DNA from: an uncultured Sandaracinus sp.
GTDB taxonomy: Bacteria > Myxococcota_A > Polyangia > Polyangiales > Sandaracinaceae
Direction: 5' to 3'
Assembly: GCA_903828805.1 (NCBI GenBank)
Contig: CAIKNO010000651.1
Coordinates: forward strand, 1 to 60,061
Length of the DNA stretch: 60,061 nucleotides
Positions 13,910 to 26,872 of the stretch are shown one piece after another (positions within the stretch are counted from its first letter, which is position 1; every line of letters starts with the position of its first letter). The notes beneath the pieces are model-generated. The model had not been told where the DNA came from, searched no databases, and saw only the letters and a program-made list of their open reading frames with translations. Made by a program: the position numbers and the translations under genes.

Positions 13910-14388
13910 TCGCGGGGCGCGGCGGAAGCGTGCGTCTCCGGCGGGCCGAGGCCGCGGACTGCGCGTTCGTGTGGAACGTGAACAACGAGCCCTCCGTGCG
14001 CGCCCAATCGATCCGCAGCGCGCCCATCCCCTTCGAGGATCACGCGGCCTGGTTCGCCCGGAAGCTCGCCGATGCGAACGCGCTCCTGTGGGTCGCCGAG
14101 GCCCCCGAGGCGGTGGGCGTGGTGCGTTGCGACAAGGCGGCGGCGGGGGCGGAGATCAGCCTCGCGCTGACGCCCGGCGCGCGGGGACGAGGCCTCGGCG
14201 CGGCGATGATCGCGGCCGCGAGCGCGGCGGCGGCCGAGGCGCTCGGCGTGTCGGTGGTCGTGGCGCTCGTGCGCCCGGAGAACCAGGCGAGTTTGCGTGC
14301 CTTCGCGCGGGCAGGCTTTTCGCCCGCCGGTCGCGAGGCACGCGAAGGCGTCGCGCTCGAGCGGCTCGAGTGGCGGGGCCCGGCGTGA
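13906..14388 (+). CDS. pseH: GNAT N-acetyltransferase, PseH-like
   Basis: GNAT fold pattern 'ISLALTPGARGRGLGAAMIAAA'; position in Pse cluster; GTGA overlap with pseI. Confidence 0.75.
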   Translation: MIAGRGGSVRLRRAEAADCAFVWNVNNEPSVRAQSIRSAPIPFEDHAAWFARKLADANALLWVAEAPEAVGVVRCDKAAAGAEISLALTPGARGRGLGAAMIAAASAAAAEALGVSVVVALVRPENQASLRAFARAGFSPAGREAREGVALERLEWRGPA

Positions 14389-14440
14389 ACGGCGCGGGCG
14401 CGCGCGCGGGCTTCGGCTATTCTGCGCTCCCGCGGCGGGC

Positions 14441-15067
14441 ATGAGCGTGCGATTCGGCATCATCGACTACGGCATGGGCAACCTCCGCTCGGTGAGGAAT
14501 GCCTTCGAATTCATCGGTGCCGACGTGGTCATCGTCGAGCGCGGCGAGGACCTCGCGGAGGTCGGTGCGGTGGTGTTGCCGGGCGTCGGCGCGTTCGGCC
14601 GCGGCATGGAGGGACTGCGAAGCCGCGGGTTCGTCGAGGCGCTCGAGCGGCACGTGAGGCAGGACGGCAAGCCCATGCTCGGCATCTGTCTCGGCATGCA
14701 ACTCTTCGCGAAGACCGGCCTCGAGCTCGGCGAGCACGAGGGGCTCGGCTGGGTCGATGCCGTCGTCGAGCGGTTGCCGTCCGCCGAGGGGCTGCGGATC
14801 CCGCACATCGGGTGGAACGACGTGCACGGCGAAGGGCCGCTCTTCGCGGGGATGGGCCACCCGAGCGCGTTCTACTTCGTGCACAGCTTCCACGTCGCGC
14901 CCGCCCACGACGGGCCCTTCGTGTCCGGGCGCACCGAGCACGGCGCGCGCTTCGTGTCGGCCGTGTCGATGGGGAACGTGCACGGCGTGCAGTTCCACCC
15001 CGAGAAGAGCCACCGCTGCGGGATCCAGCTGCTGCGCAACTTCGTCGCCCTCGCGCGGGGGGCGTGA
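14441..15067 (+). CDS. HisH-type glutamine amidotransferase subunit (sugar amidination)
   Basis: 'IIDYGMGNLRSVRNAFE', 'GICLGMQLF', 'VQFHPEKSH' (class I GATase). Confidence 0.85.
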   Translation: MSVRFGIIDYGMGNLRSVRNAFEFIGADVVIVERGEDLAEVGAVVLPGVGAFGRGMEGLRSRGFVEALERHVRQDGKPMLGICLGMQLFAKTGLELGEHEGLGWVDAVVERLPSAEGLRIPHIGWNDVHGEGPLFAGMGHPSAFYFVHSFHVAPAHDGPFVSGRTEHGARFVSAVSMGNVHGVQFHPEKSHRCGIQLLRNFVALARGA

Positions 15068-15071
15068 CGGC

Positions 15072-15899
15072 ATGCTGAAGAAGCGCCTCATCCCCGTCCT
15101 CCTGCTGCAGAACGGCCAGCTCGTGCGGAGCGAGGGGTTCTCGCTGCACCAGATCCTCGGCAACCCGGTGCACGAGGTCGAGCGCTTCAACGAGTGGTCG
15201 GTCGACGAGCTCATCTACATCGACATCAGCGACGACGACGCCATCGACGGGCGGGTCGACATGAAGGTCCGTCGCGACAGCTCTCCGCTCGACCTCCTCG
15301 AGTCGGTGGCCGCCCGCTGCTTCATGCCGCTGACGTTCGGCGGGCGCATCCGCACCCTCGAGGACGTGCGCGCCCGCATCGCGCGCGGCGCCGACAAGGT
15401 CACGCTGAGCACCGCGGCCATCGAGACGCCCGAACTGATCACGCAGGCCGCGGAGGCCTTCGGCAGTCAGGCCATCGTCGCGGTGATCGACGCGCGCAGG
15501 CGCGACGCCGGGGGCTGGGAGGTCGTGTACGACCACGCCCGAAGGTCCATCGCGCCCTCGCCTTCGGAGTGGGCCGTCGAGCTCGAGCGCCTCGGCGCCG
15601 GCGAGATCCTGCTGCAGTCGGTCGACCGCGACGGCACCGCGCAGGGCTACGACCTCGAGCTCATCCGCTCGGTGACGGCCGTCACCCACGTGCCGGTCAT
15701 CGCCCTCGGGGGCGTCGGCCGGCTCGAGCACTTCGCCGACTGCATCACCAAGGGCGGCGCCTCCGCCGCCGCCGCGGCGAACATCTTTCACTTCGTCGAG
15801 CTGAGCGACCGCCGCGCCAAGCGCGCGATGGCCCAGGCCGGCGTCGACGTGCGCCTGGTCCAGACCCCTCCTGCCCAACCGAACAAGGGACGCCGATGA
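15072..15899 (+). CDS. HisF-type cyclase-like subunit (HisF2/WbpI-like partner)
   Basis: 'MLKKRLIPVLLLQNGQLVRSEGF', 'ILLQSVDRDGTAQGYDLELI', 'VPVIALGGVG'. Confidence 0.83.
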   Translation: MLKKRLIPVLLLQNGQLVRSEGFSLHQILGNPVHEVERFNEWSVDELIYIDISDDDAIDGRVDMKVRRDSSPLDLLESVAARCFMPLTFGGRIRTLEDVRARIARGADKVTLSTAAIETPELITQAAEAFGSQAIVAVIDARRRDAGGWEVVYDHARRSIAPSPSEWAVELERLGAGEILLQSVDRDGTAQGYDLELIRSVTAVTHVPVIALGGVGRLEHFADCITKGGASAAAAANIFHFVELSDRRAKRAMAQAGVDVRLVQTPPAQPNKGRR

Positions 15900-17023
15900 G
15901 ATACTGCACCCGCTGCGTGTACCCCTCCGCCGCCGCCACGCCGCTCACCTTCGACGAGAACGGCGTCTGCAGCGGCTGCCGTGGCTACGAGCAGCGCAAG
16001 AAGATCGACTGGTCCGAGCGCAAGGAGCAGCTGCTCGAGCTCGTCGCGCAGTACCGGACCGAGGGGTCGAACTACGACTGCATCATCCCCGTCAGCGGCG
16101 GCAAGGACAGCTACTACCAGACGCACGTGATCGTGAAGGAGCTCGGCCTCAAGCCGCTGCTCGTCACCTACCACGGCAACAACTACCTCCCCGTGGGCGA
16201 GCGAAACCTCTTCCGGATGCGGGAGATCTTCGACGTCGATCACCTCGTGTTCCGGCCCTCGGTGCGGGTGCTGAAGGCGCTGAACCGCCACTGCTTCCGC
16301 GTGATGGGCGACATGAACTGGCACGCGCACTGCGGCATCTTCACGTACCCGGTCCGCGCGGCGTACCAGGTGAAGGTGCCGCTGCTCGTGTGGGGCGAGC
16401 ACGGCTACACCGACCTCGCGGGCATGTACTCGATGAACGACTATGTCGAGATGACCGCGAAGTACCGGCTCGAGCACGCGCAGCGCGGGTTCGACTGGCA
16501 CGACATGGTCGGCGTCGAGGGCATCACCGAGAAGGACATGCTCTGGGCCAAGTACCCGACCGACGACGAGATCGACGAGGTCGGCATCCGCGGCATCTAC
16601 ATCTTCAACTACGTGCCGGGGGAGGCGAACGACCACGGCGCGCTGATGGAGAAGCTCTACGGCTGGGAGCCGAGCCCCGAGCCCTTCGACCGCACGTACC
16701 GCCGCATGTCGAACCTCGACGACATGCACGAGAACGGGATCCACGACTACCTGAAGTACGTGAAGTTCGGATACGGCCGAGGCACCGACCACGCGTGCAA
16801 GGACATCCGCGCCGGCGTGATGACCCGCGCGCAGGGCGTCGAGATGGTCCGCAAGTACGACCACGTGAAGCCGAGCGATCTGTACCGCTGGCTCGACTAC
16901 GTCGGGATGACGGAAGAAGAGTTCGACCGCGTCGCCGACACCTTCCGCGACCCGCGCGTCTGGTCGAAGAACGAGCGCGGGGAGTGGTCGAAGCAGAACA
17001 TCTGGGACGCCTCGGCGGGCTGA
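15896..17023 (+). CDS. N-acetyl sugar amidotransferase (WbpG/PseA family)
   Basis: 'YCTRCVYPSAA..LTFDENGVCSGC', PP-loop 'IIPVSGGKDSYYQTHVI'; 4-bp overlap with hisF-like gene. Confidence 0.88.
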   Translation: MRYCTRCVYPSAAATPLTFDENGVCSGCRGYEQRKKIDWSERKEQLLELVAQYRTEGSNYDCIIPVSGGKDSYYQTHVIVKELGLKPLLVTYHGNNYLPVGERNLFRMREIFDVDHLVFRPSVRVLKALNRHCFRVMGDMNWHAHCGIFTYPVRAAYQVKVPLLVWGEHGYTDLAGMYSMNDYVEMTAKYRLEHAQRGFDWHDMVGVEGITEKDMLWAKYPTDDEIDEVGIRGIYIFNYVPGEANDHGALMEKLYGWEPSPEPFDRTYRRMSNLDDMHENGIHDYLKYVKFGYGRGTDHACKDIRAGVMTRAQGVEMVRKYDHVKPSDLYRWLDYVGMTEEEFDRVADTFRDPRVWSKNERGEWSKQNIWDASAG

Positions 17024-17795: not shown

Positions 17796-19880
17796 ATGAA
17801 CGACGCGAAGCGTCCGCCGGGGCGCGGTCGAACGGTGGAGATCGCCGTGGTCCAGGGCCGGGTCACGCAGATGGCGCGGGCCTGGGCGGCCGGCTGGGGA
17901 GACGTGCTTCGGGCACCGAAACTCCCCGACCTGCTGGCCTCCCTGACGGTGGCCGCCGTCGCGATGCCGCTGAACCTCGCCCTGGCGGTGGCGAGCGGGC
18001 TCCCTCCCGCCTCGGGTCTCTTCGCCGGCGCGATCGGAGGGGCCCTGGCCGCCGCATTCGGCGGTTCGTCCTTGCAGGCGACGGGCCCCGCGGCCGCCCT
18101 CAGCCTCATGGTCCTCGGCCTGTCTCAGCGCTTTGGCGCCGTCGGCGTCGCGGCGGCGTGCCTCATCATCGGCGTCACCGAGCTCGTCCTCTCTTTCAGC
18201 GGTGCCGGTCGCCTCGTACGCCACGTCCCCGAGAGCGTGCTCGCGGGGTTCACGACCGGCGTCGGCTTGACGTTGCTCAATGGGCAGATCCCCGAGCTGC
18301 TCGGGTTCGGCGTGCACGACTACAAGACCGTCGACCTCGCAGGGATGATGCACCAGCCGCTCTGGCTGCATCACGTCTCGTGGCTCGCCGCGGTGTCGGG
18401 GATCCTCGTGGCCTTCGTCGTCGTGTCGCTGCAGCGCTTCAAGCGCGTACCGGCGGCCGCCATCGCGGTGGTCGGGGTCACGTTCATCTCCGTCTACGTC
18501 GGCTGGGACGTGGAGCGCGTGCACGACATCGGAGCGGTCCCCTCGACCTTTCCGCAACTGTCGGTGCCCGTGGTCCCGGACGAGCAGTGGCTCGACCTGC
18601 TCCTCGCCACGATGCCGCTGGCGCTGCTGGCCGCGGTCGAGTCGCTCCTCTCGGCGCGCGCGGTCGATCGGATGGCGCCGGACGCACGGCCGCACGAGCC
18701 GAGCCTCGAGCTCTTCGGTCAGGCCGTGGCCAACGTCGGGGTCGGCCTCTTCTCCGGGATGCCCGTCACAGGCGTGGTGGTGCGCTCGGGCGTCAACGTG
18801 CAGAGCGGGGCCAAGACCCGCCTCGCCGCGCTTCTTCACGGCGTGCTGCTCGCAGCGCTGGCGCTCTCGCTGTCGGACACGATCGGGATGATTCCCCAGG
18901 CCGCCCTCGCGGGGCTGCTCTGCGTCATCGGGTTTCGTCTGCTCGAGGTCGGCCCCTTTCTCGAGATGCTGCGCCACGAGCGCCTCGAGGCCGCGGCCTT
19001 CGTCGCCGCCGCTGGGGGCACGGCATCGGGCCATCTCGTCAGCGGCCTCGTGCTCGGCGGGGCGCTCCACGCAGCGCGGGTCTTGATGGAACGAGGAAAG
19101 CCGGCCGCGGCGGCGTTGCGGACGGAGCCGCGCCGCCCAGGCATCCGCGCCGTCCTGGGGCGTGCGCACGCGTCCGCCCGCAGGACCATGCACGGCGAGG
19201 CCGTCACCGAGCAGCACAAATGGCTCGGCCACCTTCGACACGGTCCGGTCCGCGCGCCGACGAGCTACGTTCATCCCCACGCGACGGTGATCGGACGGGT
19301 CGTGCTGAGCGACCATGTGCACGTCGCGGCCGGGACCTCCGTGCGGGCCGACGAGGGCACGCCGTTCTTCTTCGGACCGAACACCAACGTGCAGGACGGA
19401 GTCGTCGTCCACGCGCTCAAGGATCGTGCGGTCGAGCTGGCCGGCGAATCGTGGGCCGTGTACGTCGGCCGCGACGTCTCCATCGCCCACGGCGCGCTCA
19501 TTCACGGCCCTTGCTACATCGGCGACCACACGTTCATCGGGTTCAAGTCGGTCGTGCACGACTCGATCATCGGAGCAGGCTGCTCGATCGGCATCGGCGC
19601 GGTCGTCGTCGGGGTCGAGATCCCCGACGGCAAGTTCGTCCCGCATGGGGCCATCGTCGACTCGGCGGACGCCGTCGACCGCCTCCCCGACGCCACCGCG
19701 CACCATCGTGAGTTCAACGAGGATGTGGTCGAGGTGAACCGCGGTCTGGCAGCCGCCTACACGAGCTTCGACGGTGCGGCACTTCCTCTCCGCAAGGCGC
19801 CGCCCGCGCGGCCCCTCGGGCCACCGATCTCACCCTGGGAACCGACCTGGGCGACCACGTCTGACAAGGAGCGATTCTGA
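17796..19880 (+). CDS. SulP anion transporter fused to CcmM/CamH-type gamma-carbonic anhydrase
   Basis: 694 aa; SulP signatures 'AMPLNLALAVASGLPPASGLFAGAIGG', 'MPVTGVVVRSGVNVQSGAKTRLAALLHG'; C-terminus 'AAGTSVRADEGTPFFFGPNTNVQDGVVVHAL...SIAHGALIHGPCYIGDHTFIGFKSVV...IPDGKFVPHGAIV...ADRLPD' is CcmM-like with three candidate Zn His. Confidence 0.88.
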   Translation: MNDAKRPPGRGRTVEIAVVQGRVTQMARAWAAGWGDVLRAPKLPDLLASLTVAAVAMPLNLALAVASGLPPASGLFAGAIGGALAAAFGGSSLQATGPAAALSLMVLGLSQRFGAVGVAAACLIIGVTELVLSFSGAGRLVRHVPESVLAGFTTGVGLTLLNGQIPELLGFGVHDYKTVDLAGMMHQPLWLHHVSWLAAVSGILVAFVVVSLQRFKRVPAAAIAVVGVTFISVYVGWDVERVHDIGAVPSTFPQLSVPVVPDEQWLDLLLATMPLALLAAVESLLSARAVDRMAPDARPHEPSLELFGQAVANVGVGLFSGMPVTGVVVRSGVNVQSGAKTRLAALLHGVLLAALALSLSDTIGMIPQAALAGLLCVIGFRLLEVGPFLEMLRHERLEAAAFVAAAGGTASGHLVSGLVLGGALHAARVLMERGKPAAAALRTEPRRPGIRAVLGRAHASARRTMHGEAVTEQHKWLGHLRHGPVRAPTSYVHPHATVIGRVVLSDHVHVAAGTSVRADEGTPFFFGPNTNVQDGVVVHALKDRAVELAGESWAVYVGRDVSIAHGALIHGPCYIGDHTFIGFKSVVHDSIIGAGCSIGIGAVVVGVEIPDGKFVPHGAIVDSADAVDRLPDATAHHREFNEDVVEVNRGLAAAYTSFDGAALPLRKAPPARPLGPPISPWEPTWATTSDKERF

Positions 19881-20800
19881 TGTTCGTGCTCGGCCTCATG
19901 GTCGGCCTCGGGGCGTTGACCCTGGGCCTTTCACTCCGTTCGTACATCCACGTCGAGGAGGGCGAGATCGTCGTCCTGACGCGCTTCGGGCGTGCGCTCC
20001 GCTCGCCCGAAGGCCCGCTTCGGATCCTGCGGGCAGGGCTTCATCGCAAGCGCCCCTGGGATGTCGCGCTGCGGGTCAACGTGAAGGAGCAGAGCCTCGA
20101 CCTGAGCGGCGACGAGCACCGGTTCGCGATGACGTCCGACGGAGTCGTCGTGCGCTGCGACTCGACCCTTCGCTTCGCGCCGATCGAGGCCGAGGTGGAG
20201 CACTATCTGTTCACCCTGGAGCGGCCGATGGAGCACCTCGCCGGCACGTTCAGTTGCTTGCTTCGCAACGAGATCGCCAACTTCGGCGCGGGCGATGGTC
20301 CCGTGCCCACAGGGTCCGGAGCCCTGAACGCGGGCGCGCTCATCGAGGCATCGCTCGGCGCCTACGCCGCGATCCGACGAGAGCGAGGACAGCTGCAGGA
20401 GCGCCTCGCCGCGTTCTGCCGAACGACGATGGGCGCACGTCTGGGGCTGCGCTTCGATGCCATCGACGTGATGAACTTCGAGCCTCCCGACGAGCTGCGG
20501 GACACGCTCCACACCGTCATCCAGGCCAAGACGGACGCCGAATCCAGCCACTTCCGGGCGCAGGGGGAGTGCCAGCAGCGGGTGCTGGCCGCCCGGCGCG
20601 GCGTGGAGATCGCATCGCTTCGCGCACAGGCCGTCGAGACGGAGATGCTCGTGCTCGGTCGATCGCTCGAAGTCCTCGAACGCACGAAGGTGCTCCCGCT
20701 CTACGTCGCGCGCCGACAGGCCGAGGTCTTGTCGGAGTCGAGGCACGTGTACGTGCGGGGAACGACCGCACGCGGGGCTGCCGTCCGAGGAGGTGTGTGA
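19880..20800 (+). CDS. SPFH/band-7 (stomatin/HflK-like) membrane protein A
   Basis: N-terminal TM, 'YIHVEEGEIVVLTRFGRALRSPEGP', coiled-coil C-half; TGATG overlap with upstream gene. Confidence 0.75.
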   Translation: MFVLGLMVGLGALTLGLSLRSYIHVEEGEIVVLTRFGRALRSPEGPLRILRAGLHRKRPWDVALRVNVKEQSLDLSGDEHRFAMTSDGVVVRCDSTLRFAPIEAEVEHYLFTLERPMEHLAGTFSCLLRNEIANFGAGDGPVPTGSGALNAGALIEASLGAYAAIRRERGQLQERLAAFCRTTMGARLGLRFDAIDVMNFEPPDELRDTLHTVIQAKTDAESSHFRAQGECQQRVLAARRGVEIASLRAQAVETEMLVLGRSLEVLERTKVLPLYVARRQAEVLSESRHVYVRGTTARGAAVRGGV

Positions 20801-21678
20801 TGGGTTCGTGGTTGCAACTCCTGCTGGGTATGGCCGTCGCGCCCGGGATGGCCTTCCTCGGGTGGCGCCTCTTCCTCGCGACCACCGTCCACGTCGAGGA
20901 CGGAGAAGCGGTGCTGGTCGAGTGGTTCGGTCGGCGCGTGATGACGCTGACGGAGCCGGGCGCGCACTGGCTTCCGCGCCGCATCCTGCCGTGGATGAGG
21001 GTCCAGCACGTCTCGCTTCGGCGTGATTTCCTTCGCCTCGAGAACGTGCACGTCACGGACGTCGAGGGCACGACGGTGATGGTCGATCTGTGGATCGATC
21101 ACCGCGTCGTCGATGCGGCGAAGGCGACCTACAGCGTCGAGCGTCTCGACGAGGCGCTGCGCAGCCTGGTGGCGCATGCGGCAACGGCCCTGCTCGGGCG
21201 ACGCACGTTCTGGGAGATCCTGGCGTCTCGTTCCGACCTCGGGGAGCGCCTTCGCGCCGACATCGCCGCGGACACCGAGCGATGGGGCGTGTGCATCGAG
21301 CATGCGTTCGTCCAGAAGGTGAGCCTTCTGCCCGAGGTCACGTCGCGGATCCTCGAGAGCCTCTCGGCCCGACTCGGGCGCGTGCAGGCGGAGATCCTGG
21401 AGCAAGGTCGCATCGAGGTCGCCGCGCTCGAGGCGCGCACAGGCGTGGAGGTCGCGGCACTCGTGGCCGAGGCCAAGGGGCAGTACCCGGCGGCCGTCGG
21501 CCGCGCGATGTCCGAACTCGGCAAGAGCCCCGAGATCTTGTCCGCCTACAACGAGCTGCATCGACTGTCCGTGCTGCGTCCCCACCGGGCGACGGCCTTC
21601 GTCGGCTTCGGTCCGCACGAGATGAGCGCTATCGAGGCGGCGATGATCCCTGCACGCGCAGAACCTGCGGACGGCTGA
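20800..21678 (+). CDS. SPFH/band-7 membrane protein B
   Basis: N-terminal TM, 'VHVEDGEAVLVEWFGRRVMTLTEPGAHWLP', 'VEGTTVMVDLWIDHRVVDAAKATYSVE'; TGATG overlap. Confidence 0.78.
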   Translation: MGSWLQLLLGMAVAPGMAFLGWRLFLATTVHVEDGEAVLVEWFGRRVMTLTEPGAHWLPRRILPWMRVQHVSLRRDFLRLENVHVTDVEGTTVMVDLWIDHRVVDAAKATYSVERLDEALRSLVAHAATALLGRRTFWEILASRSDLGERLRADIAADTERWGVCIEHAFVQKVSLLPEVTSRILESLSARLGRVQAEILEQGRIEVAALEARTGVEVAALVAEAKGQYPAAVGRAMSELGKSPEILSAYNELHRLSVLRPHRATAFVGFGPHEMSAIEAAMIPARAEPADG

Positions 21679-21759: not shown

Positions 21760-22872
21760 TCAGCCTCGCGACCGTCGGGCGCGCTGCGCGACGACGCGGG
21801 CGAAGAGATCGGCGAGGGCGTCGCCTTGACGCTCGGTGCACAGCGAGGCCTCGACCAGGCCTCGCCCGGCCGCGGACAGCGAGGCGCGCAGCGCGCGATC
21901 ATGCAGCAGCCGGCGCAGGCTCTGGTACCAATCCTCCGCGCTGGCGGCCACGAGCGCATTGCGTTCGTGCTCCACGAAGTCCCGCGCGCCCCCGACGAGC
22001 GAGGTGACGTGCGGCACGCCCACGGCCATGTACTGGACCTGCTTGAAGCCGCACTTGCCTTCGTGCCACTCGGTCGCGTGCATCGGCGCGAGCCCGACGT
22101 CGAGCGACTGGAAGTCGTGGAGTTCGAGGTCCTCCCGCCAGGGCCTGCGCACCGCCGACAATCCCTCGAAGTGCACGTCCTGCCCGGCGCCCACCACCCG
22201 GAACTGGAAGGGCACGCCCTCCCCCCTCAATCGACGGAGCGCAGGGAGCACCAGGTCGAGTTGAGGCGCCGTCGAGTGCGTCCCGATCCACCCGACGACG
22301 GGCGGCGCTCCGGGCGAGGCGAAGCCTCCATCCTGCCGACACGGCAGCGGTGTCCACGCAGCGGCCGGCACGACGGTCGGCAGCACGGTGACGTCCGCCC
22401 CCAGCGCATGCGCGTGCGCGCCGAGGCGGGAGGAGCCTGCGATCACGTGGGCGGCCCGCCGGATCGTCCAGTCCGTCTTCCATGCACATTTCAGGACGCG
22501 CCGGAGCGGCCCTCCCTGGGCGATCCAGATCGCGTCGTCGTAGTCGAGCACGAGCGGAAGCCCGGCACCGGCCATCCCGAGCGCCTCGATCACGGGCGGG
22601 CCCGCCATCATCGCCTCGCGCTGCACCCACAGCGCGTCGTAGCGCCCCCGGGCGCCGAGCGCGCGCAGCTGGCGCCCGAGGCCCGCGAGGCCCGCCCTCA
22701 CCCGCTGCGCACGACCGGCCCCCGAGTAGAGGACGGCGGCCGTCGCATCGTCGAGCCACGGCACGAGGTCGACGTCGATGCCGCGCGCCCGCAGCGCTGG
22801 CGCGTACGCCGCGATCCGGAAGCGGGTCGCGGCCATCCGCTCGGGAAACGATGCGAGGGCGAGGATTCTCAT
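21760..22872 (-). CDS. GT-B glycosyltransferase (GT1/GT4-like)
   Basis: 'GWIGTHSTAPQLDLVLPALRRL', 'GKCGFKQVQYMAVGVPHVTS'. Confidence 0.8.
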   Translation of the reverse strand: MRILALASFPERMAATRFRIAAYAPALRARGIDVDLVPWLDDATAAVLYSGAGRAQRVRAGLAGLGRQLRALGARGRYDALWVQREAMMAGPPVIEALGMAGAGLPLVLDYDDAIWIAQGGPLRRVLKCAWKTDWTIRRAAHVIAGSSRLGAHAHALGADVTVLPTVVPAAAWTPLPCRQDGGFASPGAPPVVGWIGTHSTAPQLDLVLPALRRLRGEGVPFQFRVVGAGQDVHFEGLSAVRRPWREDLELHDFQSLDVGLAPMHATEWHEGKCGFKQVQYMAVGVPHVTSLVGGARDFVEHERNALVAASAEDWYQSLRRLLHDRALRASLSAAGRGLVEASLCTERQGDALADLFARVVAQRARRSRG

Positions 22873-23012
22873 CGATGGCGCTCGGTTGCTCGCGGTCGAG
22901 GGCACGTTCTACACTCGGCCGCGGCGACGGCAATGCCGACGGCCTCGTCGACTTCATCGGACCACCCGCACGCGTCTTCCCCGACCCCCGCCTCTCCTCG
23001 CCGCGACGCCCG

Positions 23013-24254
23013 ATGACGCGACACGTCCTCGCTCTCACCTTCGACGGCATCCTCCAGCCGCTCGGATTCTCGCAGGTGCTCCGGGTCGCGGAGGGGCTCT
23101 CGAACGAGGGGTTCCGCTACACCCTCCTCTCGCTCGAGCGGGAGGCCGACCTCGCGCGACATGCGGACGTCGCGGCCGTGCAGCGCCGGCTGGCGCGCGC
23201 GGGGATCGAGTGGATCTGGGCGCCTTACGACACCCGCGGCGGCGCGACTTCCATCGCCCGCAACATCGCGCGGGCGACCCGGGCCGCGTCCGCCGTCGTC
23301 CGGACCGACCGGCCCGACGTCGTGCACGCGAGGGCCTTCCATGGCGGGCTCGTGGCCCGGGCGCTGCACACGATGCACGGCACGAAGTACGTCTTCGACG
23401 CCCGATCGTACTGGGTGGACGAGCAGGTCGAGGAGGGGCGTCGCTTCACCTCGGAGCGAGCGTATGCGCTCGCCAAGCACGTCGAGCGGGACCTCTTCGA
23501 GCGCGCGGCCGGCATCGTGACCCTCACGGCCCTTCAGGCGGACGATGTTCGCGAGGGGCGCCTCGGGGCGTGGCACGGACGACCCGTGGAGGTCATCCCG
23601 ACCTGCGCCGACTACGCCGAGTTCCGACCCCGCACGCCCGGTGCGCCGAGACCTGCCGCGCTCGATGGAGTTCCCGAGGGCGCCCGCGTGCTCGGCATCG
23701 TGGGTGCGCTGAACCGATCGTACGGCGCGCCGGAGACGGCCCTCCTGGCCCGGGAGATCCTCGCCCTCGATCCGCGCGTTCACCTGCTGGTCCTCACGGC
23801 GCAGGGCGACGAGTACCGGTCGCTGCTCCGCGCACACAGGGTCGACGAGGCCCGCACGCACATCACCCGCGTGTCGCACGACGAGATGCCGCGCGTGCTG
23901 CCCTTCGTGGACTGGGGCTTGCTGCTGCTCCGTTCCAACTTCGCCAAGCGCGCATCGATGCCGACGAAGCTCGCGGAGTTCTTCGCGTGCGGCGTGCGCC
24001 CGCTGCAGCACGGGTGCAACCCCGAGGTGTCGGGCTGGGTCGCGCGTGCAGGCACCGGTCTCGTGCTCGAGGATCTGTCGCCCGACGGTCTCGCGTCGGC
24101 GGCGACGCGGATCGTGAGCGCGGACGAGGCTCAGGTCTCCGCGATCGAGGGCCGGGACCGCACGAAGGACCACTTCTCGCTCGAGGCCGGGGTCGTCCGC
24201 TACGCGCGGCTCCTGCGCGAGGTCACCGAGCGCTCGGATCAACGGCAGTCGTAG
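23013..24254 (+). CDS. GT-B glycosyltransferase
   Basis: 'LTFDGILQPLGFSQVLRVAEGL', 'IPTCADYAEFRP', C-terminal GT4-like region. Confidence 0.8.
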   Translation: MTRHVLALTFDGILQPLGFSQVLRVAEGLSNEGFRYTLLSLEREADLARHADVAAVQRRLARAGIEWIWAPYDTRGGATSIARNIARATRAASAVVRTDRPDVVHARAFHGGLVARALHTMHGTKYVFDARSYWVDEQVEEGRRFTSERAYALAKHVERDLFERAAGIVTLTALQADDVREGRLGAWHGRPVEVIPTCADYAEFRPRTPGAPRPAALDGVPEGARVLGIVGALNRSYGAPETALLAREILALDPRVHLLVLTAQGDEYRSLLRAHRVDEARTHITRVSHDEMPRVLPFVDWGLLLLRSNFAKRASMPTKLAEFFACGVRPLQHGCNPEVSGWVARAGTGLVLEDLSPDGLASAATRIVSADEAQVSAIEGRDRTKDHFSLEAGVVRYARLLREVTERSDQRQS

Positions 24255-25639
24255 AGGTTCCCCAGCCGCGCCGAGGCGCTGAACGCCCCATCGAGGCGCG
24301 CGCCCACCCGGACGCTCGCGGAGGTCCACGACCACGCGGTGCCGGGCGGCCCGGACGTGGGTCCGACCGAGAGCGTGCGCGAGGTTGGATCCCAGCACAC
24401 GGGGCCGAGGCGCGCGTGGCGCGTGAAGCTCAGCGGCGCGGAGCGCGCCATGACGGCCCCCCCGCTCACGAGCTCGACGAAGACGCCGGTCCCGTCGTTC
24501 CGGATGCGCACACCATCGGCTGCGGCGACCGAGACCAGCCAGAACTCGTCGCCCGCCACGAGGTCGGCGGTCGCGAACACGGGAGAGACCTCCGTGAAGC
24601 CCGCGCTCGCGGTGAAGAAGCGCGCGTCCAGATCGGAGGCCGTGAGGAGGAGGCGATCCTGCTCCCGCGTTGCGGTCGAGGAACCGCTGCGGATGGCGCT
24701 CGTCGGGAAGCGCCCGTCCTCGAGCTGGTGAAGATCGAGCACCAGAGAAATGGGGCCCGGCAGCCCACCCGGAATCGTCGTGTCGACCGGGTAGTACACG
24801 CCGGCGGCCGTCGGCGTTCCGGTGGCCGATGGCCGGATCCACGCGGACGTCGCGGTGAGGGCCCAGGCCGGGCGCATCAGGTTTCCATAGGCGTAGTTGG
24901 CGTTCCACGGGCTCATCGTGGGGCTGCGCCCCCACGCCGAGAGCGTGCGGGCCACGCTCGACGTGCCGGTGTCCTGCCCCGGGGGATAGCCAATGCCCGA
25001 GACACGCTGCGCCGACGCGGTGCCGTCGGGGCCGGGCTCGCGCGTCCCTGCGATCATGCACGATGCAGATCCCGGCTGGCCCCATCGCGAGGTGCCCACC
25101 TCTCGGGAATCACGGATGAAGTTCGTGGCCTGGCCCTCGATCAGCAGGAGCGGCCCCGCCCCATCGCCGCGGTCCTCGAGACGTCGCTGATCCACGGCGG
25201 CCCAAGCCACGAACGCGCGAGCATCGGAAGGCGCTCCCGTCAGATACGACCCCTCGCTTCGCCGGGCGAACGTCCCCGCGGTCGACAGGTCGACCGTCCA
25301 TGGCCGACCCGCATCGGTGCCGGCGTCGAACGTGCCTGCATCGGTGCCGGCGTCGAACGTGCCCGCATCGGTGCCGGCGTCGAACGTGCCCGCGTCGAAC
25401 GTGCCCGCATCGGTGCCGGCGTCGAATGTGCCCGCGTCGAACCCGGGCCCCCCATCGTCACTCCCGGCATCCGGGGCACCGGCGTCGCGCGTGCCGGAGT
25501 CCACGCTCCCCGCGTCGCGCCGACCGCCGTCGACTTGACCCGCATCGACCGATTCGTCGATCAAGCCTGCCCGGTCGAGGCTGCATCCCCACAGCGTCGC
25601 GCACACGCATCCCACCCACGCCCAGGCCCGACGATCCAT
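24239..25639 (-). CDS. Lipoprotein with DAG-repeat linker and lectin/LamG-like C-terminal domain
   Basis: 'MDRRAWAWVGCVCATLWGC' signal; tandem (TFDAGTDAG)n linker. Confidence 0.65.
   Translation of the reverse strand: MDRRAWAWVGCVCATLWGCSLDRAGLIDESVDAGQVDGGRRDAGSVDSGTRDAGAPDAGSDDGGPGFDAGTFDAGTDAGTFDAGTFDAGTDAGTFDAGTDAGTFDAGTDAGRPWTVDLSTAGTFARRSEGSYLTGAPSDARAFVAWAAVDQRRLEDRGDGAGPLLLIEGQATNFIRDSREVGTSRWGQPGSASCMIAGTREPGPDGTASAQRVSGIGYPPGQDTGTSSVARTLSAWGRSPTMSPWNANYAYGNLMRPAWALTATSAWIRPSATGTPTAAGVYYPVDTTIPGGLPGPISLVLDLHQLEDGRFPTSAIRSGSSTATREQDRLLLTASDLDARFFTASAGFTEVSPVFATADLVAGDEFWLVSVAAADGVRIRNDGTGVFVELVSGGAVMARSAPLSFTRHARLGPVCWDPTSRTLSVGPTSGPPGTAWSWTSASVRVGARLDGAFSASARLGNLYDCR
25311..25443. 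repeat. 27-bp in-frame tandem repeat encoding TFDAGTDAG units
   Basis: Repeats of gcatcggtgccggcgtcgaacgtgccc, some partial 15-bp units. Confidence 0.9.
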
Positions 25640-25831
25640 CCGAGCATCATCGCCGACCGGGCCGGGGCGTCAACGCCCAAGCGCACGCTGCGTCTCGAGG
25701 GCACCGCGATGAACGCTCCGGCGTTCGTCGGCAACCGTGGGGCGCGGGCCGCGCAGGCCGCCCCGGCTACCACCCTCGGGCAGTTCGTTGTAGGACTCGC
25801 ACCGGTTTTTCCCACCCCGTCTCGGAGCGCC

Positions 25832-26872
25832 ATGCCCGCAGGAAAGCTCGATCTGAAGTCCGTGCTGATCACCGGTGGAACGGGATCGTTCGGCAAGGCG
25901 TTCGTCCGCTCGGCCCTCGGCCGCGGGTTCGAGCGCGTCGTCGTGTTCTCCCGGGATGAGCTGAAGCAGTACGAGATGGCGCAGATGCCTGAATTCCAGG
26001 ATCCGCGGGTGCGCTTCTTCATCGGCGACGTGCGGGACAAGGAGCGACTGCTTCGGGCCCTCGAGGACATCGACGTCGTCGTCCACGCCGCCGCGCTCAA
26101 GCAGGTGCCCGCGGCCGAGTACAACCCGTTCGAGGCGATCAAGACGAACGTCATCGGTGCGCAGAACGTCATCGAAGGATGCATCGATCGGGGCGTGCGT
26201 CGGGTCGTGGCGCTGAGCACCGACAAGGCGGCCGCGCCGATCAATCTCTACGGCGCGACCAAGCTCTGCTCCGACAAGCTCTTCGTCGCGGCGAACAACA
26301 TGCGGGGTCGGCGTGACCTGCGGATCAGCGTCGTGCGCTACGGCAACGTGATGGGGAGCCGCGGCAGCGTGATCCCGTTCTTCATGAAGCAGGCGGCGTC
26401 CGGCGTGCTGCCGATCACGGACCCGCGGATGACGCGCTTCAACATCACGCTCGAAGAGGGCGTCGCGCTCGTCGACCGCGCGCTCGCCGAGATGTGGGGC
26501 GGCGAGATCTTCGTGCCCAAGATCCCGAGCTATCGGATCACGGACGTCGCCGAGGCGGTCGGACCTCGCTGCGAGCAACGCATCGTCGGCATCCGCCCGG
26601 GCGAGAAGCTCCACGAGGAGATGATCACCGAGACCGACGCGCTCCAGACGCTCGCGTTCGGCGACCACTTCGTCATCCTTCCCGGGACCGCCGAGTGGAG
26701 CGCGCTCGAGTACGCGCAGGCGCGGCGCGGCACCATGTGCGACGCGGGGTTCCGGTATTCGAGCGGGACCAACGACGAGTGGCTCTCCGTCGCGGAGATC
26801 CGCCGGTTGATCCATGCCCACGTCGACCCGGCGTTCCGCTTCGACGACGCGCGCGAGGGAGGCGCCGCGTGA
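25832..26872 (+). CDS. pseB: UDP-GlcNAc 4,6-dehydratase (inverting)
   Basis: 'KSVLITGGTGSFGKAFVRSAL', 'FSRDELKQYEMAQ', 'HAAALKQVPAAEYNPFEAIKTNVIGAQNVI'. Confidence 0.94.
   Translation: MPAGKLDLKSVLITGGTGSFGKAFVRSALGRGFERVVVFSRDELKQYEMAQMPEFQDPRVRFFIGDVRDKERLLRALEDIDVVVHAAALKQVPAAEYNPFEAIKTNVIGAQNVIEGCIDRGVRRVVALSTDKAAAPINLYGATKLCSDKLFVAANNMRGRRDLRISVVRYGNVMGSRGSVIPFFMKQAASGVLPITDPRMTRFNITLEEGVALVDRALAEMWGGEIFVPKIPSYRITDVAEAVGPRCEQRIVGIRPGEKLHEEMITETDALQTLAFGDHFVILPGTAEWSALEYAQARRGTMCDAGFRYSSGTNDEWLSVAEIRRLIHAHVDPAFRFDDAREGGAA

Follow-up and report, generated by a model that had tools for sequence, protein, structure and literature searches.

A conserved gene cassette couples a SulP–gamma carbonic anhydrase fusion to two SPFH proteins and may encode a dome-enclosed bicarbonate transporter

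The window analyzed here, i.e., a 60,061-nucleotide stretch of contig CAIKNO010000651.1 from an uncultured Sandaracinus sp., carries three tightly packed genes on its forward strand. The first (17,796–19,880) encodes, in a single frame of 694 aa, a SulP transport domain fused to a gamma carbonic anhydrase (gCA) and is without a STAS domain. It is followed by the genes of two SPFH proteins: SPFH_A (19,880–20,800; 306 aa), with HflC as closest solved relative, and SPFH_B (20,800–21,678; 292 aa), with QmcA and stomatin as closest solved relatives. An earlier inspection of the DNA letters (hereafter the sequence-only reading) had placed overlaps at both junctions, and its coordinates proved exact to the base. 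The TGA stop codon of the fusion gene (19,878–19,880) has one base in common with the ATG of SPFH_A (from 19,880), and the TGA of SPFH_A (20,798–20,800) has one base in common with the ATG of SPFH_B (from 20,800), producing TGATG each time. Across 15 of 16 relatives (L039–L054) the SPFH_A/SPFH_B junction is a 4-base ATGA overlap, a degree of conservation that suggests the two proteins are probably translated together. Standard promoter and terminator scans yielded no useful result.

The SulP (SLC26-like) domain (17,928–19,007, forward strand, as are all cassette features; aa 45–404) matched the Pfam family Sulfate_transp (PF00916) with 197.8 bits against a curated cut-off of 23.2 (E = 3.2e-58), and its PDB matches were SLC26Dg, BicA and SULTR4;1. 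SulP proteins usually, though not universally, carry a STAS domain at their cytoplasmic C-terminus; here no Pfam match to STAS was obtained, and the SulP domain runs directly into the gCA that stands in its place. The two domains are encoded as a single open frame here, as they are in each of the 15 other loci whose contigs extend far enough. The gCA domain (19,245–19,763; aa 484–656) is of the CcmM/Cam type (NCBIfam CcmM, 5e-59; PDB 3kwc, CcmM, 1e-49), with hexapeptide repeats over the Pfam cut-off. It contains a RADEG active-site motif (19,344–19,358; aa 517–521) and three predicted zinc ligands, namely His539 (19,410–19,412) and, within the motif HGALIH (19,488–19,505), His565 and His570. 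All three histidines are invariant in the family alignment (A3), and their motifs, like RADEG, occur in 27/27 fusions. With hexapeptide repeats, three histidines and an R-x-D-E motif all present, the domain has the features of a gCA and is predicted to be catalytic.

Each SPFH protein had been described as a single N-terminal transmembrane (TM) segment followed by a band-7 domain, which was borne out by one hydrophobic helix apiece and by Band_7 scores of 47.1 bits (SPFH_A, 3.5e-12) and 66 bits (SPFH_B, 5.8e-18) against a Pfam cut-off of 23.6. The helix of SPFH_A (19,883–19,939; aa 2–20) has no Lys or Arg ahead of it and an Arg at its end; that of SPFH_B spans 20,803–20,883 (aa 2–28). The AlphaFold2 models (pLDDT 83 and 84 for A and B, pTM about 0.55) contain long coiled-coil helices at 20,489–20,683 in SPFH_A (aa 204–268) and at 21,331–21,519 in SPFH_B (aa 178–240), and resemble cage-forming SPFH subunits. 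Band_7 domain, N-terminal anchor and coiled coil together place both proteins in the SPFH/Band 7 superfamily. The closest profiles were HflC for SPFH_A and QmcA and stomatin for SPFH_B, and the HflK/HflC equivalog cut-offs were missed by both (SPFH_A, 31 vs. 134.4 for HflC; SPFH_B, 33.1 vs. 159.4 for HflK).

A neighborhood survey was used to assess whether this linkage is conserved, and it held in every locus checked. Searching 379 Myxococcota genomes with SPFH_A recovered 17 loci in 15 genomes including that of the window, the other orthologues being 37–55% identical to the window's. The gCA preceded and SPFH_B followed SPFH_A on the same strand in 17/17 loci, and SulP was present in all except L050, whose contig stops inside the gene. 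A reverse search of the same genomes with a family-consensus gCA domain (a hand-written, majority-style sequence derived from alignment A3) returned the identical 17 loci (E ≤ 2.4e-76; next match, 2e-43), so that an artefact of using a single query could be dismissed; this gCA type and SPFH_A were never found apart. No SulP or SPFH gene lay within about 3 kb of 16 lesser gCA matches, which were picked by rank or long open frames. GTDB species genomes contained at least 14 SulP–gCA fusions, and an SPFH pair followed in 14/14 of those among the matches listed, as opposed to 0/66 unfused gCAs among the same matches (mostly cyanobacterial CcmM, some from Bacillales). Bdellovibrionota carriers were found both among the GTDB matches listed (L066, L067, L068 and L070) and in a sample of 241 genomes (L199). 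The distribution is patchy, and in the SPFH_A search the two other genomes of the window's genus proved to be without the cassette.

Order and linkage are therefore kept in all of about 29 loci from two phyla amid changing flanks. Co-regulation can preserve operons, and the three genes might on that account be merely co-transcribed neighbors. Such a view is barely credible given this persistence, the inseparability of this gCA type and SPFH_A in 379 genomes, and the retention of the linkage where SulP itself has been swapped (see below). We regard the SulP–gCA/SPFH_A/SPFH_B genes as almost certainly a real, conserved and dedicated unit. When flanks of as much as 8 kb in either direction were compared for 27 loci, no gene was common to more than three, which indicates that the unit consists of exactly three genes; a wider operon including Calvin-cycle genes, carboxylases or FtsH was rejected on the same ground and because RuBisCO is mostly missing. 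RuBisCO was absent from 13 of the 15 carriers, including the window's genome, and every carrier but one encodes a separate beta carbonic anhydrase, suggesting that the role of the fused gCA is probably local and not whole-cell.

The orientation of the SPFH domains was approached through the charges flanking their TM helices. The first charge after the helix is Lys or Arg in 25/27 SPFH_A and 25/27 SPFH_B sequences, and the N-terminal tails are mostly without either residue, whereas HflC and HflK of relatives, used as a control, have the reversed bias. Under the positive-inside rule this pattern predicts domes facing the cytoplasm, as for QmcA, opposite to HflK/C and on the same side as the gCA. 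HflK/C and stomatin had both been put forward as models by the sequence-only reading; a QmcA/stomatin-like orientation is favored by our results, whereas HflK/C fits poorly with scores below its cut-offs and the opposite predicted topology. The same evidence bears on the idea that the pair is an HflK/C-like quality-control module acting with FtsH on the transporter. SPFH_A is closest to HflC by sequence and fold, and Escherichia coli YbbK/QmcA also interacts with FtsH, but neither FtsH nor another protease is conserved in the cassette flanks (the rest of the genome was not screened for FtsH); taken with the missed cut-offs and the topology, this makes such a role improbable. The two outcomes that would have spoken against the sequence-only reading, a linkage lost among relatives and a pair consistently tied to FtsH, were not observed, and the flanks contained no conserved NfeD gene either (27 loci). 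In the window's genome no HflC exceeded the cut-off, and an SPFH pair on contig C607 (L002/L003) was rejected as HflK/C since it resembles flotillins and, as judged by eye, is preceded by an NfeD-like gene.

Two features suggest that SPFH_A and SPFH_B build one assembly that recognizes the fusion. Coiled-coil spacing, measured between a proline that follows the SPFH domain and a tyrosine that follows the first coiled coil, is 72 residues for SPFH_A (P203–Y275) in 27/27 loci and for SPFH_B (P178–Y250) in 26/27, and both proteins have this value together in 26/27; equal spans would be expected of subunits standing side by side in one dome. The second feature is the C-terminus of SulP–gCA. Between the gCA and the protein end lies a variable stretch of 35–65 residues, which in the window finishes with the 16-residue candidate docking peptide SPWEPTWATTSDKERF (19,830–19,877) and its terminal [D/E]-R-F. 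The last residue is Phe in 25/27 loci; among the 23 tails that could be aligned it is Phe in 22, usually as part of [D/E]RF, compared to a frequency of 0.9% in the rest of the tails. A binomial value for this enrichment disregards the relatedness of the loci and is not a true probability. A by-product of the overlapping SPFH_A start codon or its ribosome site was ruled out, as the motif persists where SPFH_A starts 40–101 bases downstream. A docking peptide is the natural, and likely, reading of this tail, with SPFH_A and SPFH_B as the obvious candidate partners.

An assembly of this kind need not surround its client. The SPFH pair could instead act laterally or as a scaffold for a membrane domain, tuning the activity, stability or lipid surroundings of the transporter, a role that has been suggested for stomatin and a number of transporters. 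SPFH proteins are generally tied to membrane microdomains, and stomatin interacts with the anion exchanger AE1, lies near it and alters its activity (PMC5383999), an association that the sequence-only reading had named for the animal family, together with a putative one with carbonic anhydrase, and that is indeed documented. Conversely, stomatin itself was seen to encapsulate AQP1 and UT-B (preprint PMC12407830), HflK/C encloses FtsH, and the equal coiled-coil lengths of the paired SPFH proteins, together with a conserved cargo tail, suggest a specific stoichiometric assembly. On balance, a non-enclosing scaffold appears unlikely, and physical enclosure by an SPFH dome is somewhat favored.

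The SulP domain is the part of the cassette that varies. Two kinds of SulP, only 24–31% alike, share the same gCA-SPFH-SPFH chassis; SLC26Dg is the best match of type 1, and among NCBIfam models the type 2 domains tested score highest with DauA, at values far under its cut-off. The five type 2 carriers are not grouped in the chassis tree (approximately unbiased (AU) test, p = 7e-6), and one genome (G349) holds two cassettes, one per SulP type (L043 and L047), indicating that SulP has been exchanged and the enzyme and SPFH pair have not. An old SulP divergence without swapping was excluded by the same AU test. A further genome (G371) also contains two cassettes (L046 and L054), again differing in SulP type.

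This exchange raises the question of what is transported. Bicarbonate and other anions are not distinguished by sequence alone, and the main activity of SulP might be an exchange of HCO3- against sulfate, chloride or a dicarboxylate, with the gCA supplying HCO3- from metabolic CO2 and the dome serving the exchanger. Carriers of sulfate and of C4-dicarboxylates are known among SulP families, and the best matches of both types, the occurrence of two very different SulPs on one chassis and the scarcity of RuBisCO among carriers are all in keeping with such a scheme. However, the constant element of the cassettes is the carbonic anhydrase, which is our main reason for calling inorganic carbon the common substrate, and SulPs linked or fused to a carbonic anhydrase are regarded as bicarbonate carriers. 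We therefore consider exchange centered on another anion rather doubtful, and bicarbonate probably the main substrate of SulP–gCA.

Combining these observations, the best explanation of the cassette appears to be a bicarbonate transport metabolon of SulP–gCA enclosed by an SPFH dome, to which we assign a probability of roughly 0.58. SulP would move HCO3- across the inner membrane, and the gCA on its cytoplasmic C-terminus would convert HCO3- to CO2 and back at the mouth of the pore. SPFH_A and SPFH_B would co-assemble, probably alternating, as a cytoplasm-facing dome that is fixed in the membrane through their N-terminal helices and holds several SulP–gCA copies via the conserved [D/E]RF tail. 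As gCAs are trimeric and SulP proteins dimeric, the fusion should form clusters unaided, which the dome would then fence in. In hosts that mostly lack RuBisCO, the likely use would be to provide bicarbonate for carboxylases or to maintain a local HCO3-/CO2 balance sustaining anion exchange by SulP. A hetero-oligomeric cage corralling the fusion was already proposed in the sequence-only reading; it is the best-supported model in terms of coiled-coil lengths, folds, predicted topology, tail and solved precedents, and enclosure itself is what we infer from these. A bolder formulation, in which a cytoplasm-facing two-SPFH dome, loaded through [D/E]RF, constitutes a new bacterial micro-compartment with a local inorganic-carbon pool, an exchangeable transporter and neither carboxysome nor RuBisCO, is put forward tentatively, as possible but short of an even chance.

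Several observations count against the enclosed metabolon. The positive-inside signal is short, comprising one or two residues, and SPFH_A is closest to HflC, a periplasmic-facing protein. The terminal Phe is absent in L054, L068 and L199, and the named carriers are all metagenome-assembled genomes. The SulP domain is no nearer to BicA than to SLC26Dg, so that bicarbonate as substrate follows solely from the association with the gCA. Finally, a related adjacent SPFH pair (A'/B'; L024–L036, L055, L056 and L200–L204), about 23–31% identical to the cassette pair and likely its closest outgroup, occurs without SulP–gCA in many Myxococcota and Bdellovibrionota genomes, implying that such pairs also have other jobs.

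Each component of the cassette is of a familiar kind. What the literature searched does not describe is their constant combination, the conserved tail and the swapping of the transporter. SulP–carbonic anhydrase fusions have been described before, reportedly by Felce and Saier (2004) and as SulP-can2 clade C (PMC6458275). These likewise have SulP physically coupled to, or next to, a carbonic anhydrase and are proposed bicarbonate carriers, but the cassette differs in its CcmM/Cam-type gCA (instead of Can2) and its two constant SPFH partner genes. HflK–HflC is likewise a neighboring pair of non-identical SPFH genes whose products have one N-terminal TM segment each, and its hetero-oligomeric dome serves as a model, whereas the cassette proteins score below the cut-offs, are predicted to be cytoplasmic instead of periplasmic, and have a transporter-enzyme cargo in place of a linked protease. 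Can2 belongs to the beta class of carbonic anhydrases. QmcA and stomatin (SPFH1) are closest to SPFH_B, and stomatin forms a cytosolic dome over a membrane transporter; the cassette is distinguished by having no NfeD partner, two paralogous predicted dome proteins, and a dedicated cargo, including a carbonic anhydrase, in the same operon. CcmM of beta-carboxysomes shares the gCA subfamily, with RADEG and the three histidines, but the cassette has no SSU-like repeats, no shell and, in most carriers, no RuBisCO, and is membrane-bound through SulP. Sulfate, bicarbonate, carbonic anhydrase and transporters go unmentioned in a 2009 survey of prokaryotic SPFH operons (PMC2636767). The sequence-only reading knew of no bacterial system with this composition, and our literature search, which left most subscription journals outside, likewise found no paper joining SulP–carbonic anhydrase fusions to SPFH genes.

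Neither the contents of SPFH domes nor the reason for enclosing them is settled, in bacteria or in animals. The cassette offers a simple system in which this question is directly testable: a predicted dome shares one operon with its cargo, the cargo probably bears a docking tag, and transporters have been swapped in nature. If the enclosed metabolon is real, the concept of transporter and carbonic anhydrase working as a transport metabolon would extend to a genetically fixed case, and heterotrophs would possess a new sort of inorganic-carbon handling. These results suggest that some bacteria may wall off a bicarbonate gate within a dedicated protein dome.

The genes around the cassette in the window look like a surface-glycan cluster. 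Upstream (14,297–17,023, forward strand) lie a HisH-like amidotransferase, a HisF-like His_biosynth gene and a third gene resembling an N-acetyl sugar amidotransferase by eye; downstream are glycosyltransferases (21,760–24,254) and a polysaccharide-type dehydratase (25,778–26,869). On the reverse strand (24,242–25,639), a 466 aa open frame without a Pfam match consists in part of DAG-rich tandem repeats (FDAGTDAGTFDAG) and perhaps encodes a secreted protein.

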